Shown here piece by piece: positions 34,436-63,991 of a stretch of 64,000 bases of DNA. A program made the translations under genes and the position numbers. The DNA is from Pseudoalteromonas sp. MM1. Its GTDB lineage: Bacteria; Pseudomonadota; Gammaproteobacteria; Enterobacterales; Alteromonadaceae. Numbering within the stretch: the first letter of the stretch is position 1; each line of letters starts with the position of its first letter. The notes beneath the pieces were generated by a model. That model was given only the letters and a program-made list of their open reading frames with translations. It was not told the origin of the DNA and did not search any database. The stretch is from positions 248,001-312,000 of the forward strand of contig NZ_AP027922.1 in NCBI RefSeq assembly GCF_030296835.1, given 5' to 3'.

Positions 34436-37400
34436 ATGGCTTACTCTTATTCTGAAAAGAAACGTATCCGTAAGGATTTTGGTAAACGTCCACAAGTTTT
34501 GGATATACCTTTCTTACTGTCAACACAGTTAGAATCGTTTAAAAAATTCTTAGTCCCAGACGCTGATGGCGATCATGGTTTGGAAGCAGCCTTCCGTTCT
34601 GTGTTCCCTATTAAAAGCTACTCGGGAAATTCTGAGCTTCAATACGTAAGTTATCGTATTGGTGAGCCAGTATTCGATGTAAAAGAATGTCAAATTCGCG
34701 GTGTGACTTATTCTGCTCCACTTCGCGTGAAACTGCGTCTTGTAGTTATGGACAAAGAAGCTCCAGGCACAGTTAAAGACATTAAAGAGCAAGAAGTTTA
34801 CATGGGCGAAATTCCGCTCATGACTGATACCGGTACTTTTGTAATCAATGGTACAGAGCGTGTTATCGTTTCTCAGCTACACCGTAGCCCTGGTGTATTC
34901 TTTGATAACGACCGCGGTAAAACCCATTCATCGGGTAAAGTATTATATAACGCACGCGTTATTCCTTACCGTGGTTCATGGTTAGACTTCGAATTTGATG
35001 CAAAAGATAACTTATATGTACGTATAGACCGTCGTCGTAAATTACCGGCGTCTATTATCTTACGTGCACTTGAGTACTCTAGCGAAGAAATCTTAGATAT
35101 GTTCTTCGACACCACTGCGTTTGAAGTAACTGACGGTAAAGTTCTTATGGAGCTTGTGCCTTCACGTTTACGTGGTGAAACTGCCGCTTTTGATATCAAA
35201 GGCGAAGACGGTGAAGTACTTGTTGAAAGCGGTCGTCGTATTACGGCACGCCACATCAAGAGCATCGAGAAAAAAGGCATTAATCAATTAGAAGTACCAC
35301 ATGAGTACATCATTGGCCGTATTGTAGCTAAAAACTATGTTGATGAATCAACAGGTGAAGTTATTGCAAACGCTAATGACGAGCTATCACTAGAGTTGAT
35401 GGCTGAATTGGTTAAAGCAGGTCACACTAAAATTGATACGTTATACATCAATGAAGTGGACAGCGGCGCTTACATGTCAAATACATTGAATATTGACTCG
35501 TCAAGCAACCGTTTAGAAGCATTAGTAGAAATTTATCGCATGATGCGCCCAGGCGAGCCACCGACGAAAGACGCGGCTGAAGCCTTATTTGAGAACTTAT
35601 TCTTCTCAGAAGAACGTTATGACTTATCTACTGTAGGTCGTATGAAGTTCAATAGCCGTGTTGGTTATGATACTGACACAGGCCCAGGCACATTAAGCAA
35701 AGAAGACATCGTAGCTGTTATGAAAGTATTAATTGCTATTCGTAACGGTCAAGGCGATGTTGATGATATTGACCACTTAGGCAACCGTCGTATCCGTAGT
35801 GTTGGCGAAATGGCTGAGAACCAATTCCGTGTTGGTCTAGTACGTGTAGAACGTGCTGTACGTGAGCGTTTAAGCTTAGGTGACCTTGACGCGATCATGC
35901 CACAAGACCTTATTAACGCTAAGCCTATTTCGGCAGCAGTTAAAGAGTTCTTCGGCTCGTCTCAGTTATCACAGTTTATGGACCAAAATAACCCGCTATC
36001 AGAAGTAACGCACAAACGTCGTATTTCTGCATTAGGCCCGGGTGGTCTTACGCGTGAGCGCGCTGGCTTTGAAGTACGTGACGTTCACGTAACTCACTAT
36101 GGTCGCGTATGTCCAATCGAGACGCCTGAGGGTCCAAACATCGGTCTAATTAACTCGTTATCTACGTACGCACGTACAAATGATTACGGTTTCTTAGAAA
36201 CACCTTACCGTAAAGTGGTAGACGGTGTTGTAACTGATGAAGTTGATTATTTATCAGCCATTGAAGAAGGTCAGTTTGTTATCGCACAGGCGAACTCAAA
36301 CTTAACTGAAACCAATGAATTTGTTGATGAACTTATTCCGTGTCGTCACAAAGGTGAATCAACCTTTATGGGTCGCATGGATCAGCAATATATGGATGTA
36401 TCACCACAACAGGTGATCTCTGTAGCGGCAGCACTTATCCCGTTCTTAGAACACGATGATGCTAACCGTGCATTGATGGGTTCAAACATGCAACGTCAAG
36501 CAGTACCAACATTGAAAGCGGATAAGCCGTTAGTAGGTACAGGTATTGAGTTAACACTAGCGAAAGACTCTGGTGTAACTATTGTTGCTAAACGTGGTGG
36601 TGAAGTAATGTACGCCGATGCAAGTCGCATCGTTGTAAACGTACATGACGATGAGCGTATTCCTGGTGAAGCGGGCATCGACATTTACAACCTTACTAAA
36701 TACACACGTTCTAACCAAAATACATGTATTAACCAAAAACCAACGTGCATGGTTGGTGAACCGGTTACTCGTGGCGACGTGTTAGCAGATGGTCCTTCGA
36801 CTGACTTAGGTGACTTAGCCCTTGGTCAAAACCTTCGCGTGGCATTCATGCCATGGAACGGTTATAACTTCGAGGATTCAATCTTACTATCAGAGCGCGT
36901 AGTTGAAGAAGATCGTCTAACGACTATCCACATTCAAGAACTACAGTGTGTTGCCCGTGATACTAAATTAGGTCCTGAAGAGATCACTGCAGATATCCCG
37001 AATGTGGGTGAGTCTGCGCTAGGCAAGCTTGATGAATCAGGCGTTGTTTATATCGGTGCTGAAGTTAAAGGCGGCGATATCCTAGTAGGTAAAGTGACTC
37101 CGAAAGGCGAGACGCAATTAACACCTGAAGAGAAGCTACTGCGTGCTATCTTCGGTGAAAAAGCGTCTGACGTTAAAGACAGCTCTTTACGTGTACCAAA
37201 CTCTGTAACTGGTACTGTAATTGACGTACAAGTTTTCACCCGTGATGGTGTTGAAAAAGATAAGCGTGCGTTAGAAGTTGAAGATATGCAGCTTCGCGAA
37301 GCGAAGAAAGACTTCAACGAAGAGTTCCGTATTCTAGAAGCTGGTGTACTAGACCGTGCTCGCAAGTTACTTGCAGCAGCAGGCTTCGACGAAAACAACT

Positions 37401-54718: not shown

Positions 54719-55597
54719 TTAAAGGCGAGTAACACTAAAACCTTTATCTTTTAACTGCTTTATTAAACCATGCTGCTCTGGCAAGTGTAGTGCACCTACA
54801 GCAATAAAGAGTTTTTCGTTAATCAGGCGCGGCACTAACTGCTCCACCCACTTATTATTACGATTAACTAGCATAACTTGCTCGCTTATTTCACCGTAGT
54901 TACTATCGTCAAAACTCATGTTGTAGTACGCGGTAAGCGTATCCATATCGCCATTTTTCCAAGCGTTTACGAGTTTGATAAAGTAGGTATTAATATCGGC
55001 AAGCTGCTCAAACGTTTCTTCAATCATTTCGTTACTTAATAGCGCCATACCATCAAACATTTGCAACTGCTGCTCTAGGGTTTCTAGCTCGCCTATTTTA
55101 ATATTACGTTCTTTAGCATAAGCAAGTACTTGCTTATCTATGCCTGTTTGATCAGAGAAACCTGCATTTTGAAACTCAATCTGCATCATGGTGACCATTA
55201 CAGCCCAAGGTTTAAGGCCATTAAACATAGCTATATCAATCGATTTTTTAGCAAAGTAATCTTTAAGCTTATTGTAGTTTTGTTTTGATAGTTCTGTTTG
55301 TAAGGTTTTGCCCTCTTTAAGCATCATAAAGGGCATTGAGCGCTGCTGCATTTGCAGTGGTGTGAGTTTACTAATATCTACTTCAACAATAACTTGATCG
55401 CTTTGATCTATAGCCTTAGTTATTTTTTCTGGTAAGCCTTTCATGCTGGCATCGCCCACATGAACTGTTCCAAACAAATACGAGCTAGTGCCGTTTTTTT
55501 CTACTTTAAACAATGCTGGCGCTGCGACACTATTAAAACTAGTTGTAATAAAAAGTGTCAGTATAAAAAACTGAGTAATTCGAGTGAGGGCTTGCAT
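54719..55597 (-). CDS. TraB/GumN family protein, exported
   Basis: 292 residues. A signal peptide (~1-25, ending SVAAP) leads into the family's opening FGTVHVGDA (~43-51), where the GxxH pair is conserved; a later IAVGALHLPEQHGL (~265-278) repeats the His-containing motif near the C-terminus. The fold is related to metal-dependent proteases (TIKI/GumN/EreA group); substrates in bacteria are unknown. It starts 45 bp after the sensor kinase stop on the same strand and could be the last gene of the eptA operon. Confidence 0.86.
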   Translation of the reverse strand: MQALTRITQFFILTLFITTSFNSVAAPALFKVEKNGTSSYLFGTVHVGDASMKGLPEKITKAIDQSDQVIVEVDISKLTPLQMQQRSMPFMMLKEGKTLQTELSKQNYNKLKDYFAKKSIDIAMFNGLKPWAVMVTMMQIEFQNAGFSDQTGIDKQVLAYAKERNIKIGELETLEQQLQMFDGMALLSNEMIEETFEQLADINTYFIKLVNAWKNGDMDTLTAYYNMSFDDSNYGEISEQVMLVNRNNKWVEQLVPRLINEKLFIAVGALHLPEQHGLIKQLKDKGFSVTRL

Positions 55598-55642
55598 GGT
55601 TTGTCCTTAATCTAATTGAGTTGCCTAAATACTAACCTAAAT

Positions 55643-57079
55643 TTACTTTATGGGTAGTGTTAAATTAAATGTAAGGGTATTACTTTTGTTATTTTGAGCA
55701 TTAACTTTAAAGCCATTTAAATTGCATAAGCTTAGCACTATAGAAAGCCCTAAACCGTGCCGCTGATTATTAGTTCGTGAAGAATCGAGTTGATACAGTG
55801 GATCGAAAATAGCACTTAGCTCTTCATCGCTAAGTGGCCTGTCTATTTTATTACTTATTGAAATTGTTACACTATGCTCACTTTCGGTGGCATCTATAGT
55901 AATAGCTTGATCAGTTATACCGTAAAATAATGCATTGTCTATAAGGTTACATAAAATAGTATTTAAGCTAAATTCATCTGCAAAAATAGTTAGTTTATCA
56001 TTGAGCATATTAGTAATACGCTCAGAAATATTTAGATGCTTAAAAGCGAGTTCTTCGATAACTTGCTTAGTTAAGTGCTTTAAAATGATGTTTTGTTTAT
56101 TAAGCTCAATAGCGCTGCTGCTAGAGCGCTGTAATAACAGTAAATTATTTACAATAATCTTCATTCGCTGAGATATATTAAGTACGTCGCTGGTATATGT
56201 ATCGCTAATGCGTTTATCGTTAGGATAGCGAAGCGCTACTTCAGAGAGACTAATGAGCTCGGCAATAGGGGTTTTTAGTTCGTGTGCGATATCGTTAGTT
56301 AGGCGCTTTTCACTGCTATAGAGCTTTTGATTTACAGTTATAAACTTATTGAGTTCGTTACGTATAGGCTCTAACTCTTCTACCTTTATGTCGCTTTCTA
56401 TTGTTTGTGCAACGCCTGTAATATCAAGTATTTTTATTTGTTCATTTAAATTATTAAGCGGGAATAGACCTTTATTTACAATGCGAGTAACCAAGTAGCG
56501 CACGCCAAATACACCAAATATACACGTTAAAATAAATACAACATCTATAATTATGAGCACTTTATTTAGTTCATCAGTAGGGGCTGCTATTGCAAGTGTC
56601 ATGCGGTTGAATACGTCTAAGCCTGTAGTGCTTTTATCACCTTTTTGTGCAATAAAATGACTTATAAGTGCACGGCCATCATGTCCGTTAGGAAGCTCAA
56701 TATCGATTATTTTGGATTCATTTATTGGCATGTCTAAAAAAGGTAAGTTTGCGCCTGGAAATAAGTCGAGTGAATCAGAACGTTCAAATATCGCTTCTCC
56801 ATGCCAAAGCTGATAAAACTCACTGGCTTGTGTATGTTCATATTCAGACATGAACTCGCCAGCAAAATCAAACTCTACATTGCCATTATCATCTTCTACC
56901 AATGTTTTTAAGTAATTTGCCTTATTTGTGAGCGACTGATTAAACTGATCTTCCACCCAAGTATCCACACTTATATCAACGGTTAAAAATATTGTGAATA
57001 AAATAACCGAGATCACGGCGCTAATATTATTAACGAGTTTACGTTTTATTGAGTGACTTTTATTTTGTTGTTGCGACAT
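55643..57079 (-). CDS. Sensor histidine kinase of the PmrB/QseC/CarS type
   Basis: 478 residues from the ATG at 57079, which has GTGGATTT upstream; a start four codons earlier is possible. TM helices ~14-36 and ~174-196 bracket a periplasmic sensor of ~135 residues that is acidic (EDDNGNVEFDFAGEF, SDSLDLFPG), compatible with cation or peptide sensing. His266 is in NDIAHELKTPIAEL, followed by a HATPase domain (NLIDNALFYG, RHGLGLSIV). It overlaps the response regulator gene by 20 bp, so the two form one module; with eptA in the operon a PmrB/CarS-like role in polymyxin or peptide response is inferred. Confidence 0.9.
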   Translation of the reverse strand: MSQQQNKSHSIKRKLVNNISAVISVILFTIFLTVDISVDTWVEDQFNQSLTNKANYLKTLVEDDNGNVEFDFAGEFMSEYEHTQASEFYQLWHGEAIFERSDSLDLFPGANLPFLDMPINESKIIDIELPNGHDGRALISHFIAQKGDKSTTGLDVFNRMTLAIAAPTDELNKVLIIIDVVFILTCIFGVFGVRYLVTRIVNKGLFPLNNLNEQIKILDITGVAQTIESDIKVEELEPIRNELNKFITVNQKLYSSEKRLTNDIAHELKTPIAELISLSEVALRYPNDKRISDTYTSDVLNISQRMKIIVNNLLLLQRSSSSAIELNKQNIILKHLTKQVIEELAFKHLNISERITNMLNDKLTIFADEFSLNTILCNLIDNALFYGITDQAITIDATESEHSVTISISNKIDRPLSDEELSAIFDPLYQLDSSRTNNQRHGLGLSIVLSLCNLNGFKVNAQNNKSNTLTFNLTLPIK

Positions 57080-57734
57080 AGCCAAATCCACGTTTATTTT
57101 TTATTGGAAGCTCGCCATCAAACTGCCTTACTTTTTTACGTATGGTTGATATGTGTGCTTCAAGCGCATTTTTTGAAAGCATATCGAATTGCCCCACAAC
57201 AGCTTCGCTTATAAGCTCTAAGCCTAAAACTCGTTCAGGTGAATTAAACAAGCATTCGATTATTTTGTACTCATTGCGGGTAAGCTCAATAGGGTGGTGC
57301 TTATACATGAGAGTTTTTAACGATAGATCTAAAATACAATCGCCAACAGTGAGCATGTTTTGTTGATTTTGTAGAGCACCTCTACGAAGTAGAGCCAAAA
57401 CCCGTGCATGAAGCTCTTCAAACGAAAACGGCTTTGTAAGGTAATCGTCCGCACCTTTCATAAGGCCGTTTATGCGATCTTGTGCTTCGCTTTTAGCAGA
57501 TAAAATAAGCACGCGGCTTTGGCTATTACTGCTGCGTAGTGCTTGTAAAATACTCATGCCATCAACACTCGGTAGCATTAAATCAAGCACGAGGAGGTCG
57601 TAATTTCCACTCAGTGCCATACTCAAGCCTTCTGAGCCATCACCGGTTTCATCTACGGTAAAACCTAGGTTACTAAGGCCTACTTGCAAACTGCGCCTTA
57701 GTGCTTCGGAGTCTTCAATTATGAGGATTTTCAT
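57060..57734 (-). CDS. OmpR/PmrA-type response regulator
   Basis: 224 residues. Receiver with acidic pocket IEDSE (6-10), phospho-acceptor Asp51 (LLVLDLMLPSVDG) and Lys near 101 (LTKPFSFEEL). The C-terminal winged helix (~125-222) ends KIKNKRGFGYVA-type, as in PmrA/QseB. Such regulators bind direct repeats like the CTTAAG-N5-CTTAAG found upstream of eptA at 61818-61834, which points to autoregulation of this operon. Overlaps the kinase gene and follows the LTA synthase-like gene by 63 bp. Confidence 0.93.
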   Translation of the reverse strand: MKILIIEDSEALRRSLQVGLSNLGFTVDETGDGSEGLSMALSGNYDLLVLDLMLPSVDGMSILQALRSSNSQSRVLILSAKSEAQDRINGLMKGADDYLTKPFSFEELHARVLALLRRGALQNQQNMLTVGDCILDLSLKTLMYKHHPIELTRNEYKIIECLFNSPERVLGLELISEAVVGQFDMLSKNALEAHISTIRKKVRQFDGELPIKNKRGFGYVATTK

Positions 57735-57797
57735 GTTTGCTCGGTTTATAAAAATAGCCTTGTTACTTTAACAAGGCTTTATAATCAAGTCACTTTG

Positions 57798-59747
57798 TTA
57801 ATGATACCAGCCGTTTGTATAAGCTAGGTTGCCTAAGTTGGCATGGGCGAGGGCTTTTTTAATCAGTTGCTCATCGTTTTCACATGGCACAAGCTTGTTA
57901 TTACTGTATGTATAGGTGGTTGCTGGTTTTTGTGGTTGTAACACCACCACTTTATTACCGTGCATATAAGCAAAGTTTTTGTCGTATTGCATCATAGCAC
58001 GTTGTTTGTTATCGCTAATTGGCTTTGATAAATCATGCCCTATCATTGGGTGTTCGCCACTTGCACCAATTAAAGAGAGTAAAGTTACGGGAATATCGAG
58101 TTGGCTGGCTAGTTGGTCATCGCGTTTGTGAGCTATACCTTTGCCAAAAATAACAGCTGGAATTCTAAAGTGATCAACCGGGACCAAATTAGAGCCCGAT
58201 ACTCGCGAGTCGTGATCGGCAATAACAATAAATACGGTGTTGTCCCAGTAGCTTGATTTTTTAGCTTTTTCGATAAATGTACCTAGTGCATAATCGGCAT
58301 ATTTTGCAGCATTATTTCGGGTTTGCTTTTGTTTGTCGTACAGCGTTATTTTGTTATCTGGAAAATCATAGGGACTGTGATTAGAGCTTGAAAATATAAG
58401 GCTAAAAAAGGGTTTATTCTGTTTTTCAAGTTTAGTGAGCTCGAGATCGGCTTGATCATATAAGTCTTCGTCTGATGCGCCCCATGAACCATTAAAGTCT
58501 ATTTTATTAAAGTTATTCGTATCTACAATATCTTTAAAACCATTACCTAAAAAGAAGCTTCGCATGTTATCAAAATGGCTTTCGCCACCATAAATAAACT
58601 GGGTGTTGTAATTTTTCTTAGCTAAAAAATCAGCAATGGTAAAAAAATTATGTTGTGATTTATCAAGCTTAACGACCGCACGCGAAGGTGTGGGTGTAAA
58701 TCCTGTAATTACCGCCTCAATTCCTCGCACCGAGCGCGTACCTGTGGCGTATAAATTGTCAAACCCCCAGCCTTGTTTATAAAGGGCATCAATATTAGGT
58801 GTAAGCGGTAAACCGCCAAGTGTACCTACGTAACGGGCACCTAAACTTTCTTGTAAAATAATGACTAGATTTTTTGGTTTGCCTGTATTGCTTGCTGCAT
58901 GAAATGTTTTTGTTGGTGCGGTTAAGTCACTAAATGCGGCTTGTGTATTTTGCATATTATTACGCACAATACTAAGTAGCTCATTTGTAGGCATTTTCCC
59001 GAAATAGTCTTGGCTTGATTGCTCGTTAGAGAGTTGTTTGAGCGCAAATACGACGCTATAAAGTGAGTTCAGAGTTAAATCGTTAAGTAAGTGATCGGTA
59101 GAAAACGAGACCATAGCTGGGTTTAGCGGCCTATGCCCTAATGAATTACGCGCGCCTAAAATAGTCAAACATACTAAAACTAATGCTAAAACTGATTGAT
59201 TTAGCCTCGTTAGTGATGACTTACTTTGCCATTGATGACTAAATACTTTACTTGCAAACTTACAGCTTAAAACAAGTGTTATAACAACAATCACTACGTC
59301 TAGCTTATAGCCTGAAAAAATCATTTTTGAGATTTCTTTAGGGTAAATTAAATACTCTATAAATAAGCGGTTTGGGCGCAAATCGTATTCGTTTATAAAC
59401 GTAGGAGTAATCACTTCAAAAAAAACGAGTAAAGCAGACATCGCTACTAAGTAAATTTTAATGAGGCCGCATACTTTGTTTTGCCAATTTATGCTTTGCA
59501 TAACTAAAGTCAGTAGTAATGCAGGCATAATAATGTAGCTTAAAGTCGCTATATCTACTCTTAGGCCACCTATAAATATAGAAAGCCATGCATGCGATCC
59601 AAATACACGCTCACCTTGCCATACGCTCAACCCAAAACGGGCAAGAGTTAAAAAACTCAGAGCTAAAATAGTAAATACAACAAGAATCCACACAGGGCCA
59701 AATACTTGCTTGACTTTAGAATTATTACTTTTAAGCGTTAAGCCCAT
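57798..59747 (-). CDS. LTA synthase / OpgB-like sulfatase-fold transferase
   Basis: 649 residues from the ATG at 59747, the only ATG near the start; it overlaps the dgkA stop by 10 bp. About five N-terminal membrane helices (to ~residue 205) precede a periplasmic sulfatase/alkaline phosphatase-fold domain (~290-645) with the metal-ligand Glu300 (ILQESLG), the nucleophile Thr337 (YATGTRSVRG) and VIADHDSR near 470. LTA synthase, OpgB/MdoB and related enzymes transfer phosphoglycerol from phosphatidylglycerol and leave diacylglycerol. The acceptor here (periplasmic glucan, LPS or other) is unknown. Confidence 0.88.
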   Translation of the reverse strand: MGLTLKSNNSKVKQVFGPVWILVVFTILALSFLTLARFGLSVWQGERVFGSHAWLSIFIGGLRVDIATLSYIIMPALLLTLVMQSINWQNKVCGLIKIYLVAMSALLVFFEVITPTFINEYDLRPNRLFIEYLIYPKEISKMIFSGYKLDVVIVVITLVLSCKFASKVFSHQWQSKSSLTRLNQSVLALVLVCLTILGARNSLGHRPLNPAMVSFSTDHLLNDLTLNSLYSVVFALKQLSNEQSSQDYFGKMPTNELLSIVRNNMQNTQAAFSDLTAPTKTFHAASNTGKPKNLVIILQESLGARYVGTLGGLPLTPNIDALYKQGWGFDNLYATGTRSVRGIEAVITGFTPTPSRAVVKLDKSQHNFFTIADFLAKKNYNTQFIYGGESHFDNMRSFFLGNGFKDIVDTNNFNKIDFNGSWGASDEDLYDQADLELTKLEKQNKPFFSLIFSSSNHSPYDFPDNKITLYDKQKQTRNNAAKYADYALGTFIEKAKKSSYWDNTVFIVIADHDSRVSGSNLVPVDHFRIPAVIFGKGIAHKRDDQLASQLDIPVTLLSLIGASGEHPMIGHDLSKPISDNKQRAMMQYDKNFAYMHGNKVVVLQPQKPATTYTYSNNKLVPCENDEQLIKKALAHANLGNLAYTNGWYH

Positions 59748-60109
59748 AATACAGCCCACCAAATAAGAGCTGTAATTAGCATGGCTATAAACACACTGGC
59801 TGAGGCAATATCTTTAGCGAGCCCCGAAAGCTCATTATATTCGCTGCCAATTCTATCAACCACAACCTCAACGGCTGTATTTACCAGCTCAGCAAACAAT
59901 ACAAAAAGCAGGCTGGCTATCAGTAATAACTTGTCGCTTAATGCAATGTCTTGTAACCACACAAACACTCCAAGTAACGAAAACAGTGCTAGCTCTTGTT
60001 GAAACGCCGCTTCAAATCGACTCATCCATTTTAAGCCGTTAAAAGAATGGTTTAAGGTAAAAATAAGGCGCATTAAGCCTTGGCGTTTTATAACGGTTTT
60101 ATTGCTCAT
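59738..60109 (-). CDS. dgkA: Diacylglycerol kinase
   Basis: 123 residues (E. coli 122), small inner-membrane enzyme with three helices. Phosphorylates diacylglycerol to phosphatidic acid for reuse in phospholipid synthesis. The conserved FVLFAELVNTAVEVVVDRIG (~69-88) and ELSGLAKDIASASVF (~93-107) hold the active-site Glu and Asn residues. Overlaps eptA by 4 bp (ATGA) and the LTAS-like gene by 10 bp, so all three are co-translated. It would recycle the diacylglycerol released by both neighbours. Confidence 0.96.
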   Translation of the reverse strand: MSNKTVIKRQGLMRLIFTLNHSFNGLKWMSRFEAAFQQELALFSLLGVFVWLQDIALSDKLLLIASLLFVLFAELVNTAVEVVVDRIGSEYNELSGLAKDIASASVFIAMLITALIWWAVLWA

Positions 60110-61773
60110 AGTTTTATTTCGCTTGTTGTTTGGCAGTGAGCAAGTAAATCAAGGGATGCCTGATATGTTTTGCTTTTAATGCCAATTAAATTTAAAAGGG
60201 TGTGGAAAATATTGTTGTGTGAGCGTGCAGCTCGGGTGTCTAAATTAGCTAAACAGGCATTCGTAATGCGCTGATTATGCTCATCAGCCCACATATAAAG
60301 AGGAACGTGCGTTTGTGTGCTAGGTGCAAAGCTATACGGAAAACCATGTAAATAAGCCCCAGCTTCGCCAAGTGATTCACCATGATCAGAGACATATAAA
60401 AACTGCTTATCTATGTTTTTTGGCAGCGCTTTTAACTGCTCAATTACCTGGGCGTTAACATAGTCGCTGTACGCAATTGTGTTGTCGTAGGTATTAACTA
60501 ATTCATCGAGTGAGCAGTTTTGAATGTCGCTTCTGTCGCACGTGGGCTTAAATTGCTTAAATTTATCTGGGTAGCGCTTAAAGTAGGTGGGTCCGTGTGA
60601 GCCCATCATATGCAGGACGATCACGGTGTTAGCTTGGCTTAAATTAGCGAGTTTACGTTTAAGTGGAGCAATAAGTGCTGCATCAAAACAATATTTCCCA
60701 TCGCAAAGCGCTGATGCAGTGGTTGAGATATCAATGTTAACAACACGGGTGCATACGTTTTTACAGCCGCTGTTGTTATCAACCCACAGCACATCGCTGC
60801 CAGCTTGTTGTGCAAGGTCAATCAGGTTTTGTTGGTTATCGGCCGTTAATCGATCGAAGTTATCATGTGTTTGCAGCGAAAACATACACGGCACAGACAC
60901 CGCTGTTGCCGTACCGCATGATGCGACATTATTAAAATACGTTACATTATGCTTTTGTGTATAGGGATTGGTGTTGCGTTTATATCCCTGGTAAGCAAAG
61001 TTGTCTGCTCGTGCGGTTTCGCCAACAACTATAACTGTTACGCTGGGAATCGTCGGCTCAATTAGGGTAGGTGCTGCATCTATACTTTTAAATTTTATAT
61101 TGGAGTACAACAGTTGATCGCGCATATATTTATAACCGCTAGAGAGGTACTGAAATGGAATGATTTCTTTTTTCAAAATGCGATTATTACGGCCAGTGGC
61201 TGCGTAGTCGGCGTAAAAGTTCACAACAACTAAAGTAATTAATAAGCAGCACGCTAGAATAAGCTTTATACGGCTAATCGCTTCTTGGTGGGGGCGAGTG
61301 AAATGTATTTTCACTTTGCTTAATATAAAAACAGGTAACGCACAAAATAGCAGTAAAAAGCCTATGAGCTGCGGGTTTAAATAGCTCAACGCTTCGCTTG
61401 AATCTGTTTCGAACGTGTTTTGAATCATTGAATAGTCAAACACGACGCCGTAATTTAATGAGCCATAAAGTACAGCGCTTGAAATTATCAGTAATAGGTA
61501 ATTTATGGGTTTTAGTAACCACCTAACCGATACAATCGAAAAGAAAATAATTAAAAGACATAACAATAGCAGCGGGACTGAAAATAAAAACAGCCATGAA
61601 AAAGACGCAAGTGAGGTAATGGCGCTAAACGAACCTTGAATAAAAGGAATGTTTATAACTAAACAGTAATAACAAGCAATCATTACTACAAAGGTGTTTG
61701 CACTACAGTGAATATAAAACCGTTTACTACGATTTGGCTTTTTTTGTACGGGTGTATGGTTAAGTGCGTTCAT
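60106..61773 (-). CDS. eptA: Phosphoethanolamine-lipid A transferase (EptA/MCR family)
   Basis: 555 residues. Five N-terminal membrane helices (~26-185), then a periplasmic catalytic domain. All residues known from MCR-1 and Neisseria EptA are present: metal ligands Glu252 (VGETARADNF), Asp463 and His464 (SDHGES), nucleophile Thr290 (SCGTATAVSVPCMF), plus His393 (GSHGPTYF) and His476 (YLHGFP). Cysteines in the soluble domain (286, 296, 337, 341, 357, 362, 412, 420) fit the disulfides of this family. It adds phosphoethanolamine from phosphatidylethanolamine to lipid A, lowering charge and giving polymyxin resistance. The chromosomal operon context argues for intrinsic, not mobile, mcr-like function. 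Confidence 0.95.
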   Translation of the reverse strand: MNALNHTPVQKKPNRSKRFYIHCSANTFVVMIACYYCLVINIPFIQGSFSAITSLASFSWLFLFSVPLLLLCLLIIFFSIVSVRWLLKPINYLLLIISSAVLYGSLNYGVVFDYSMIQNTFETDSSEALSYLNPQLIGFLLLFCALPVFILSKVKIHFTRPHQEAISRIKLILACCLLITLVVVNFYADYAATGRNNRILKKEIIPFQYLSSGYKYMRDQLLYSNIKFKSIDAAPTLIEPTIPSVTVIVVGETARADNFAYQGYKRNTNPYTQKHNVTYFNNVASCGTATAVSVPCMFSLQTHDNFDRLTADNQQNLIDLAQQAGSDVLWVDNNSGCKNVCTRVVNIDISTTASALCDGKYCFDAALIAPLKRKLANLSQANTVIVLHMMGSHGPTYFKRYPDKFKQFKPTCDRSDIQNCSLDELVNTYDNTIAYSDYVNAQVIEQLKALPKNIDKQFLYVSDHGESLGEAGAYLHGFPYSFAPSTQTHVPLYMWADEHNQRITNACLANLDTRAARSHNNIFHTLLNLIGIKSKTYQASLDLLAHCQTTSEIKL

Positions 61774-61817: not shown

Positions 61818-61834
61818 CTTAAGAATTGCTTAAG
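61818..61834 (-). promoter_or_regulatory. PmrA/QseB-type box upstream of eptA
   Basis: Perfect direct repeat CTTAAG-AATTG-CTTAAG on the plus strand (each half is self-complementary, so it reads the same on the minus strand), ending 45 bp before the eptA start. Matches the PmrA consensus YTTAAK-N5-YTTAAK. The operon's own OmpR-family regulator is the obvious candidate to bind it. Confidence 0.75.
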
Positions 61835-62196: not shown

Positions 62197-62253
62197 TGCT
62201 ATAAACTTAAGCATTAAAAAGCCCTCCGCACCTAACCGTTCGGAGGGCTTTTT
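62151..62253 (+). promoter_or_regulatory. ilv attenuator with antiterminator and terminator
   Basis: Terminator: AAAAAGCCCTCCG (62216-62228) with CGGAGGGCTTTTT (62241-62253), 12-base loop. Antiterminator: GAGGGCTT (62184-62191, the end of the leader peptide gene) is complementary to AAGCCCTC (62219-62226) in the terminator's 5' arm. Protector: AGTCCT (62151-62156, within the Leu/Val codons) can pair with AGGGCT (62185-62190). Ribosome stalling at Leu/Val/Ile codons would mask the protector and let the antiterminator form. Confidence 0.88.
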
Positions 62254-62341
62254 AGTTTTAAGCACAAAGTTTTAAAGATTTTAGCTATAAGTTTTAAGTA
62301 AGTATGTAATTGGGTTGTCACTGAGGAATGAGGATTTATTA

Positions 62342-63991
62342 ATGACAGGCGCAGAACTAACAATCGATTTATTAGCCAAGCACGGCGTAAATGAAGTATT
62401 TGGCTACCCTGGCGGAGCTATTATGCCCATTTACGATGCGCTGTATGGCGCGCCTGTAAAGCATTACCTTACTCGCCACGAGCAAGGCGCTGGCTTTGCC
62501 GCTGTAGGTTATGCTCGCAGCACAGGAAAATTAGGTGTGTGTTTTGCTACCTCAGGGCCAGGCGCTACTAACTTAATAACAGCACTTGCCGATGCGATGA
62601 TGGATTCAGTGCCATTGTTAGCAATTACTGGCCAAGTACCTACTGCCGCTATTGGCTCAGATGCATTTCAAGAAGTAGATGTATTAGGTATGTCGCTTTC
62701 GTGTACAAAACACAGTTACATGGTAGAGCGAGCAGAAGATTTAGCCGAAATATTACAAGAAGCTATGCACTTAGCTCAAAGTGGTCGCCCAGGCCCAGTG
62801 CTTGTAGATATTCCAAAAGATATTCAAATGGCGCAAGTGCCTTTTAAACCTTGGTTAGCCGCTGATGAATATTTACCGCAGCTTGATCTAAAGCAAGTGG
62901 CCATTGCAAATCAGTTATTAAGTGAGGCAAAGCAGCCTGTTGCGTATGTTGGTGGCGGTGTACAAGCCGCTGATGCACAAAATGAGTTAATGCAGTTTTT
63001 AAACAAAACACAAATGCCAGCGGTATCAACATTAAAAGCGTTAGGCAGTGTATTACCTGATTACGAGCACTACTTAGGAATGCTAGGCATGCATGGTACA
63101 CAAGCCGCTAATATTGCAGTCCAAGAGTGTGATGTATTAGTGTGTATAGGCGCTCGCTTTGATGACCGCGTTACCGGCAACTTAGCCAAATTTGCAGCCA
63201 AAGCAAAAGTAATTCATTTAGATATTGATGCGGCTGAGGTTGGTAAACGTAAACCTGCTAAAGCGTCATTAATTGCTGATTTAAAAACATCATTACCGGC
63301 TCTTGAGTGCTTTGCGACACCTAAAGCTTGGTGTGATAAAAATAAAGAAATGAATAGTAAGCATGCTTGGCGTTACGATTACCCAGGCGAAAAAGTATTT
63401 GCCCCGTATTTATTGAACCAATTAAGCCAGCGTATGCCAAAAACAGGCGTAGTTTGCTGCGATGTGGGTCAGCACCAAATGTGGGTAGCGCAACACATGA
63501 AATTTAGCCATCCGAGCAACCATTTAAGTAGTGGTGGCGCAGGCACTATGGGCTTTGGTTTACCAGCGGCTATTGGCGCACAAGTGGCGCGCCCAGACGA
63601 TTTTGTAATAACTGTGTCGGGTGATGGCTCAATCATGATGAACATCCAAGAGCTTGCCACTATTCGCCGTAATAATTTACCAGTAAAAATACTAATATTA
63701 GATAACCAGCGCTTAGGTATGGTTCGTCAATGGCAGGAGCTGTTTTTTGAAGGTCGTTACTCTGAAACTAACTTGTCAGATAACCCTGACTTTGTTCAAT
63801 TAGCCGCAGTATTTGGTATTCCTGGGCAAACGATCACCAAAGCCAACGAAGTTGACGATGCAATAACAGCATTAGTTAATAGCAAAGGCCCGTATATTTT
63901 ACATGCCTGTATAGATGATAAAGAAAATGTATGGCCGCTTGTACCACCTGGGGCTGCAAATGACGAAATGATTACGGAGAAAGCACAATGA
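62342..63991 (+). CDS. ilvG: Acetolactate synthase II large subunit
   Basis: 549 residues (E. coli IlvG 548) from the ATG at 62342 with GAGGATT upstream. Condenses pyruvate with pyruvate or 2-oxobutyrate in valine, leucine and isoleucine synthesis. TPP enzyme: activating Glu47 (TRHEQGAGF), FAD/central domain, and the TPP/Mg motif [10 protein letters not shown] (~422-431) with the following [12 protein letters not shown]. The reading frame is intact, unlike the frameshifted ilvG of E. coli K-12. Its TGA overlaps the next ATG (ilvM) by four bases. Confidence 0.96.

Follow-up and report, generated by a model that had tools for sequence, protein, structure and literature searches.

Does a polymyxin-type operon of Pseudoalteromonas sp. 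MM1 encode a second headgroup transferase? A locus with eptA, dgkA and an LTAS/MdoB-like gene

Why should a transferase of the LTAS/MdoB type be encoded among the genes of a polymyxin-type response? The question is raised by a minus-strand locus of Pseudoalteromonas sp. MM1 at positions 54719-61773 of a 64,000-nucleotide stretch (contig NZ_AP027922.1, positions 248,001 to 312,000), which we call the window; eptA, dgkA, the LTAS/MdoB-like gene (below, the LTAS gene), a response regulator gene, a kinase gene and a TraB/GumN gene follow each other there in this order. The answer that we hold, with somewhat more belief than doubt, is a dedicated polymyxin-type envelope-stress operon with two headgroup transferases, one recycling kinase and one switch, whose second transferase most likely moves phosphoglycerol onto an acceptor of the lipopolysaccharide (LPS) type. 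EptA transfers phosphoethanolamine (PEtN) from phosphatidylethanolamine onto lipid A, and DgkA converts diacylglycerol to phosphatidic acid. In the mechanism that we propose, the response regulator would act on a single PmrA-type box before eptA and drive eptA-dgkA-LTAS, and a hairpin after the LTAS gene would pass only part of the transcripts on to the regulator, kinase and TraB genes. EptA would modify lipid A with PEtN taken from phosphatidylethanolamine. The LTAS-like enzyme would carry a further headgroup, for which phosphoglycerol donated by phosphatidylglycerol is the most likely candidate, to a different envelope acceptor that faces the periplasm; LPS (lipid A or core) is more probable here than a periplasmic glucan. 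Both transferases would leave diacylglycerol, which the second DgkA copy of the genome would return to phosphatidic acid. The elements of the locus are the following.

61818-61834, minus strand: putative PmrA/BasR-type box CTTAAG-CAATT-CTTAAG, 44 bp ahead of the eptA start
60106-61773, minus strand: eptA, phosphoethanolamine-lipid A transferase, 555 amino acids (aa)
59738-60109, minus strand: dgkA, diacylglycerol kinase, 123 aa
57798-59747, minus strand: LTAS/MdoB-like AlkP-superfamily transferase, 649 aa counted from ATG
57756-57778, minus strand: hairpin AGCCTTGTTA-AAG-TAACAAGGCT, then ATTTTT, terminator- or attenuator-like, in the gap between the LTAS and regulator genes
57060-57734, minus strand: OmpR/PmrA-class response regulator, 224 aa (PF00072 and PF00486)
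55643-57079, minus strand: sensor histidine kinase, 478 aa from ATG (PF00512, PF02518)
54719-55597, minus strand: TraB/PrgY/GumN family protein, 292 aa (PF01963, 232.3 bits, cut-off 26.8)

The six minus-strand open reading frames of the preliminary description were recovered from the sequence at the same coordinates, and so were its gene junctions: eptA and dgkA overlap by 4 bp, dgkA and the LTAS gene by 10 bp provided that the latter begins at ATG 59747 (the mechanically called frame opens upstream, at TTG 59762), the regulator gene overlaps the kinase gene, which starts at ATG 57079 or GTG 57091, and the TraB gene starts 45 bp beyond the kinase end. The gap between the LTAS and regulator genes is 63 bp. 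The assignments of EptA and DgkA were likewise upheld. EptA has the EptA_B_N and Sulfatase domains of Pfam and exceeds the cut-off of the NCBIfam model for lipid A PEtN transferases (NF028537 P_eth_NH2_trans, 570.5 bits against 500), while the narrower EptA equivalog NF008619 is not reached (527.9 against 660); it matches the EptA of N. meningitidis (5fgn) with 346 bits and is 38% identical to that of E. coli. DgkA scores 92.7 bits with PF01219 DAGK_prokar (cut-off 22.3) and matches the solved E. coli DgkA entries at 4e-23. As dgkA has two matches in the genome (4.49 Mb, two contigs), the operon copy included, the latter may serve the operon alone. The TraB/GumN gene is co-located with these genes.

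Does the LTAS gene keep this company elsewhere? We scored neighbourhoods in the best 80 of 580 loci (below, the named loci), the closest LTAS protein being 94% identical and also from Pseudoalteromonas, and took genes on the same strand within 4 kb as linked. Of the 71 named loci scorable for eptA, 19 had it linked to the LTAS gene, as did 31 of the 73 scorable for dgkA with that gene, and dgkA occurred without a found eptA 14 times. With 19 further loci and the window itself, which make 100, eptA was linked in 30 of the 90 loci that could be scored for it and dgkA in 45 of 93; 28 loci had both genes, 17 (14 eptA-scorable) had dgkA but no eptA that we could find, two had eptA alone, and seven could not be scored. 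Since the 19 were hand-picked, some of them for boxes or a missing eptA, the counts from the named loci are the fairer ones. The gene orders vary. Besides the window, five loci read eptA-dgkA-LTAS-regulator-kinase and ten eptA-dgkA-LTAS; a kinase-regulator pair diverges from LTAS-eptA-dgkA in five and from dgkA-LTAS-eptA in two; four Shewanella loci have eptA-dgkA-regulator-kinase-LTAS and one locus dgkA-eptA-LTAS; dgkA-LTAS was found 12 times, LTAS-dgkA five times, three orders were single cases, and in 52 loci the LTAS gene was alone or unscorable. On a quick LTAS tree, which came with a long-branch warning, linkage changed at least nine times for eptA and at least 16 times for dgkA, gains and losses not being separated. 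Such re-association in new gene orders is expected of a functional link. The pairs of dgkA and LTAS without eptA are expected if the LTAS-like enzyme itself releases diacylglycerol, and they make it plausible that DgkA serves this enzyme too, as the preliminary description had suggested; we did not find such pairs described in the literature searched, which here and below means open-access papers. In Shewanella the LTAS gene has a fixed chromosomal slot (downstream clusters 4, 5 and 6 in 14 loci), and the eptA-dgkA-regulator-kinase set joins that slot in some species only (L098, L099, L104, L108 and L126, as against L093, L101, L117, L132 and L133).

Within the genus, 62 of 108 genomes match the LTAS protein, or 59 after the remote-only G123, G155 and G181 are dropped; a close EptA was found in 54, and 51 have both. 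An EptA of 69% identity or more is present in 21 genomes. In 18 of these an intact LTAS gene comes after eptA-dgkA, and in one (G183) a broken one; with 19 of 21 the order is not due to chance. In G183 (L177) it is in two pieces with one in-frame stop, and this genome also has neither the two-component system nor opgG. The two-component system is missing in four of the 21 (G214, G183, G210, G219). Two other genomes, G205 and G206 (L227, L229), retain the box and the TraB gene and have lost everything from eptA to the kinase gene; in G205 the sequence, judged by eye, runs from the eptA leader into the 3' end of the kinase gene, with breakpoints near the eptA start and the kinase end. Parts of the unit are thus dispensable, the LTAS gene included.

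A further argument comes from the box. CTTAAG-N5-CTTAAG has what we take to be the shape of the PmrA/BasR box, and the exact copy before eptA is the only one in the genome, where the reversed control pattern has no site; with one mismatch allowed there are 13 boxes genome-wide and two control sites. The box occupies a like position in relatives, with different spacer letters, and E. coli K-12 has one-mismatch boxes 46 bp before eptA and 44 bp before pmrR. From this match we regard it as a probable PmrA-type direct-repeat box, and we infer that the neighbouring regulator recognizes it. The 108 genus genomes hold 91 exact boxes, in 66 of them, against 13 control sites. Places are given for 76 of the boxes, the window's own added and those after G210 missing, and 44 of the 76 (36 genomes) lie at most 400 bp upstream of an LTAS gene (30) or eptA (14), where 0.007 would be expected. 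Is the LTAS gene only carried along behind the promoter of eptA? Eight LTAS genomes of the genus have no close eptA, that is, no match to the window's EptA at E 1e-100, a limit that missed a divergent EptA in G064 (35-36%). Of these eight, the LTAS gene is preceded by an exact box in G178, G204, G211 and G213 and by one with a single mismatch in G162 and G170; G130 and G177, the latter a fragment, have no box there. In G204 and G170 the LTAS gene is paired with dgkA. Among the named loci, a box with at most one mismatch lies upstream of the LTAS operon in 13 of 79 locus windows as against five of 543 control windows, two of those five (L100, L105) being the same divergent stretches. The box of L128, counted among the 13, is doubtful, as it is 6.6 kb from the LTAS gene behind a run of genes and has a twin in L106 among the controls; without it the count is 12 of 79. 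The boxes before solitary LTAS genes are the strongest argument that the LTAS gene would itself be a target of the response. In the literature searched, no PmrA-type box was found ahead of LTAS-type genes that stand without eptA. In Pseudocolwellia and Psychrosphaera (L074, L075) the divergent promoter between the regulator gene and dgkA has several overlapping boxes that repeat every 11 bp and alternate between CTTCAG and CTTAAG, as though for a row of regulator dimers.

What does the LTAS-like enzyme transfer? The protein has hydrophobic helices at its N terminus, then a periplasm-type catalytic domain, and Sulfatase is its sole Pfam domain (PF00884, 165.7 bits). E300, T337, H457, D511 and H512 are unchanged in 15 of 15 aligned relatives and probably act as metal ligands and nucleophile. 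It is a relative of VP1736 of V. parahaemolyticus (PDB 3lxq, 582 bits), an entry that carries no assigned function; the name VP1736 was absent from the papers found in our literature search. Its predicted structure, built from 15 sequences, has LtaP, LtaS and GacH as its nearest neighbours after 3lxq, all of them phosphoglycerol transferases. EptA and MCR entries were absent among the 50 structural matches listed, an absence to which we give no weight. The score with the LtaS model is below its cut-off. Of the phosphoglycerol-type modification that had been proposed for this locus, the part that stands is the presence of an LTAS/MdoB-like transferase in the operon; phosphoglycerol as the moved group is suggested by family and fold only. 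Ten records labelled as plasmids (H1-H10), some of them chromosome-sized and three from Pasteurella multocida, have LTAS relatives below 60% identity. HI_1246, an LTA synthase family gene, had raised mRNA and protein in a gcvB mutant of Vibrio alginolyticus according to the excerpt of PMC9409037.

Several findings weigh against the operon as we read it, and we take them together with the rival explanations on which they bear. Neither eptA nor dgkA is near the LTAS gene in 46 of the 100 loci; the neighbourhood search foreseen in the preliminary description did find a recurring linkage, in several orders. Two of the 21 close relatives (G210, G219) retain eptA-dgkA with no LTAS gene. Absence of the gene from this position in relatives was what that description itself had named as telling against it, and this applies to these two and, in part, to the broken copy, as opposed to the other 18. 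Both observations favour the view that the LTAS gene is a passenger, its neighbourhood being kept by common descent with no shared function; the several gene orders, the repeated changes of linkage on the tree and the boxes directly before solitary LTAS genes speak against it, and we consider it most improbable. Furthermore, of the 76 boxes with a known place, 32 are at other positions, and 14 sites are in genomes with neither LTAS nor eptA. One of the 32 precedes the divergent eptA of G064 and two are upstream of the TraB gene (G205, G206); another five, some 4 kb away but within the cluster, stand ahead of a gene without assignment (observed in G160 and G134, and judged for the other three from similar spacing), five precede a T_hemolysin-type gene, and the remainder are elsewhere or intragenic. 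The regulator, finally, scores 167 bits with the PmrA equivalog NF007928, whose cut-off is 330.

Other doubts concern the headgroup. The model of the LTAS-like protein is of low confidence (mean predicted local distance difference test, pLDDT, of 63), so that the fold ranks serve only as support; the residues which in LtaS presumably contact the glycerol phosphate headgroup are not conserved; and it is not obvious how the addition of an anionic group such as phosphoglycerol could raise resistance to polymyxin. A headgroup call from the conserved LtaS residues was tried and given up as indecisive, since the aligned stretch of OpgB is without them too. Could the enzyme be a second PEtN transferase, with phosphatidylethanolamine as donor, another LPS site as target and an EptA-like effect of charge on resistance? 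The lost LtaS contacts would suit this, as would the linkage to eptA and dgkA behind the same type of box, and in V. vulnificus the loss of dgkA and mdoB adds to the loss of eptA, for which a zwitterionic group is the simpler account. We nevertheless consider this unlikely. Very unlikely is a mainly regulatory protein that, like YejM/PbgA/LapC, senses the state of lipid or LPS: the score with the YejM model is 26.7 of the 825 bits that membership takes, the putative metal-ligand and nucleophile positions are invariant, and the repeated pairing with dgkA alone points to the release of diacylglycerol.

A more serious rival is that the enzyme is the OpgB of this genome, which would add phosphoglycerol to osmoregulated periplasmic glucans and by its place in the operon tie glucan charge to envelope stress. 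With two opgG-family genes and three Sulfatase-family matches, the genome has no other obvious OpgB candidate, and there is a weak match between the protein and the OpgB of E. coli (24% over 241 aa). In the genus, opgG is present in 35 of 59 LTAS genomes as against seven of 49 others (odds ratio 8.75; kinship is ignored in this and the following co-occurrence test), which fits a glucan acceptor and counts against the LPS-type acceptor that we prefer; of the 19 close LTAS loci (clade A), 17 belong to genomes with opgG. On the other side, the scores with the OpgB/MdoB models are far below their cut-offs (NF009027, 68.3 against 572; NF003000, 45.1 against 574), and 24 of the 59 have no opgG, including G151 with a 77% identical LTAS protein in the same operon. 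In a sample of the same order the LTAS subfamily occurs in 102 of 295 genomes, opgG is missing in 91 of the 102, and it is commoner where LTAS is absent (54 of 193; odds ratio 0.31). The glucan was therefore rejected as a general acceptor, although for this genome the association within the genus leaves it a possible one; that the enzyme is an OpgB here we regard as doubtful. A glucan-acceptor test for this subfamily was not found in the literature searched.

How does the operon that we propose compare with known systems? Both its type and the partnership of DgkA and EptA are already known, published from V. vulnificus and other Vibrio species. According to the excerpt of PMC10433830, the only paper found that gives functional data on this set of genes, dgkA-eptA-mdoB of V. 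vulnificus is an operon activated by CarR; an eptA mutant has a 2-fold lower minimal inhibitory concentration of polymyxin B, which falls to the level of the carR mutant when dgkA and mdoB are removed as well. The same three enzyme types thus stand there in one unit under an OmpR-class two-component system, whereas gene order differs, CarRS has its own operon, a CarR site takes the place of the PmrA-type box, and that excerpt reports neither a TraB gene nor a hairpin between transferase and regulator genes. The V. vulnificus MdoB is like our protein in enzyme type and only a presumed member of its subfamily, which is a further point against the operon as we read it. In the V. harveyi group, the excerpt of PMC12064563 describes rstAB-(glycine zipper)-dgkA-eptA, a dgkA-eptA pair likewise controlled by an adjacent two-component system, RstAB, in which dgkA was required for the resistance conferred in E. 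coli, but names no LTAS-type gene. A review reports PmrAB-like systems beside eptA and dgkA beside mcr genes (excerpt of PMC10285318). In E. coli, eptA-basR-basS (PmrAB) similarly joins eptA to a regulator and a kinase behind a box of the same shape, but the stretch inspected has no dgkA or LTAS gene. Our regulator is 36% identical to BasR, and the kinase (HisKA and HATPase domains) 26% to BasS over 248 aa. E. coli OpgB/MdoB, phosphoglycerol transferase I, shares the superfamily and the proposed donor type, and differs by the model scores and by the absence of opgG from most genomes of the LTAS subfamily.

It had also been noted that eptA-dgkA of Vibrio is next to CarRS/VprAB, and at the level of the site this parallel did not hold. 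No copy of GACAN6TACA, the CarR site of V. vulnificus, occurs in the operon, and the window has one match, at 34678-34691, which is chance level; CarR-type control through this site was rejected, the element present being of the PmrA/BasR type. The regulator's relatives at 58-69% identity come from Vibrio, Photobacterium, Shewanella and others, with no CarR name among those listed. What was borne out is that the LTAS/MdoB-like transferase belongs to a response unit of the polymyxin type that includes a dedicated two-component system.

Is the unit a single operon, as first described? The hairpin between the three enzyme genes and the regulator, kinase and TraB genes makes one uniform transcript uncertain. 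The hairpin (57778-57756, in the direction of the genes) has a 10-bp stem and a T tract, the longest stem among the terminator-like sites of the stretch, of which there are 12 against 6.8 in shuffles. It is kept in 16 of the 17 genomes having the LTAS/regulator junction and is missing in L045 (P. neustonica type); four genomes (L046-L049, three distinct sequences) have a compensatory change from a T-A to a C-G pair and have lost the T tract. It may be that the hairpin is an attenuator or processing site which holds regulator output below enzyme output.

A narrower form of our reading takes the LTAS-like enzyme for an LPS phosphoglycerol transferase induced by stress under a PmrA-type box; with phosphoglycerol placed on lipid A or core, these bacteria would edit their LPS with PEtN and phosphoglycerol by way of one shared DgkA. 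We regard this as doubtful too, but it would account for the phosphoglycerol reported on lipid A and core of Colwellia, for which the excerpt of PMC8914368 names no enzyme. C. psychrerythraea 34H was not named among the 120 matches listed in a Colwellia profile search for the LTAS subfamily, many of which are nameless, and a paper on the lipooligosaccharide of S. vesiculosa reports PEtN on lipid A, the word phosphoglycerol not occurring in its text. If the operon works as proposed, EptA-based resistance operons would hold another headgroup transferase, one that uses phosphatidylglycerol and relies on the same recycling kinase. A widespread unassigned subfamily with a solved but unexplained structure (3lxq) would gain a function, and its default annotation as a periplasmic-glucan enzyme would be argued against. 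The second transferase looks like a regular part of the polymyxin response with a testable target, and the role of an MdoB-like protein in a polymyxin operon would be reduced to one mass-spectrometry experiment.

Some minor observations were made beside these. In five Pseudoalteromonas genomes (L221, L222 and L224; L215 and L218 by eye) the T_hemolysin-type gene (PF12261, scanned in L221) follows an exact box at a distance of about 50 bp. A gene for a protein of about 548 aa beside clade B operons (L181:8429-10075, L230:6876-8514) is preceded by a separate exact box in G134 and G160; a Pfam scan gave it no family, and by eye it has the look of an outer-membrane barrel. In the window, a G+C-rich hairpin with a T run at 62220-62265, about 60 bp before a divergent acetolactate synthase gene (62315-63991, plus strand), resembles by eye an ilv attenuator.

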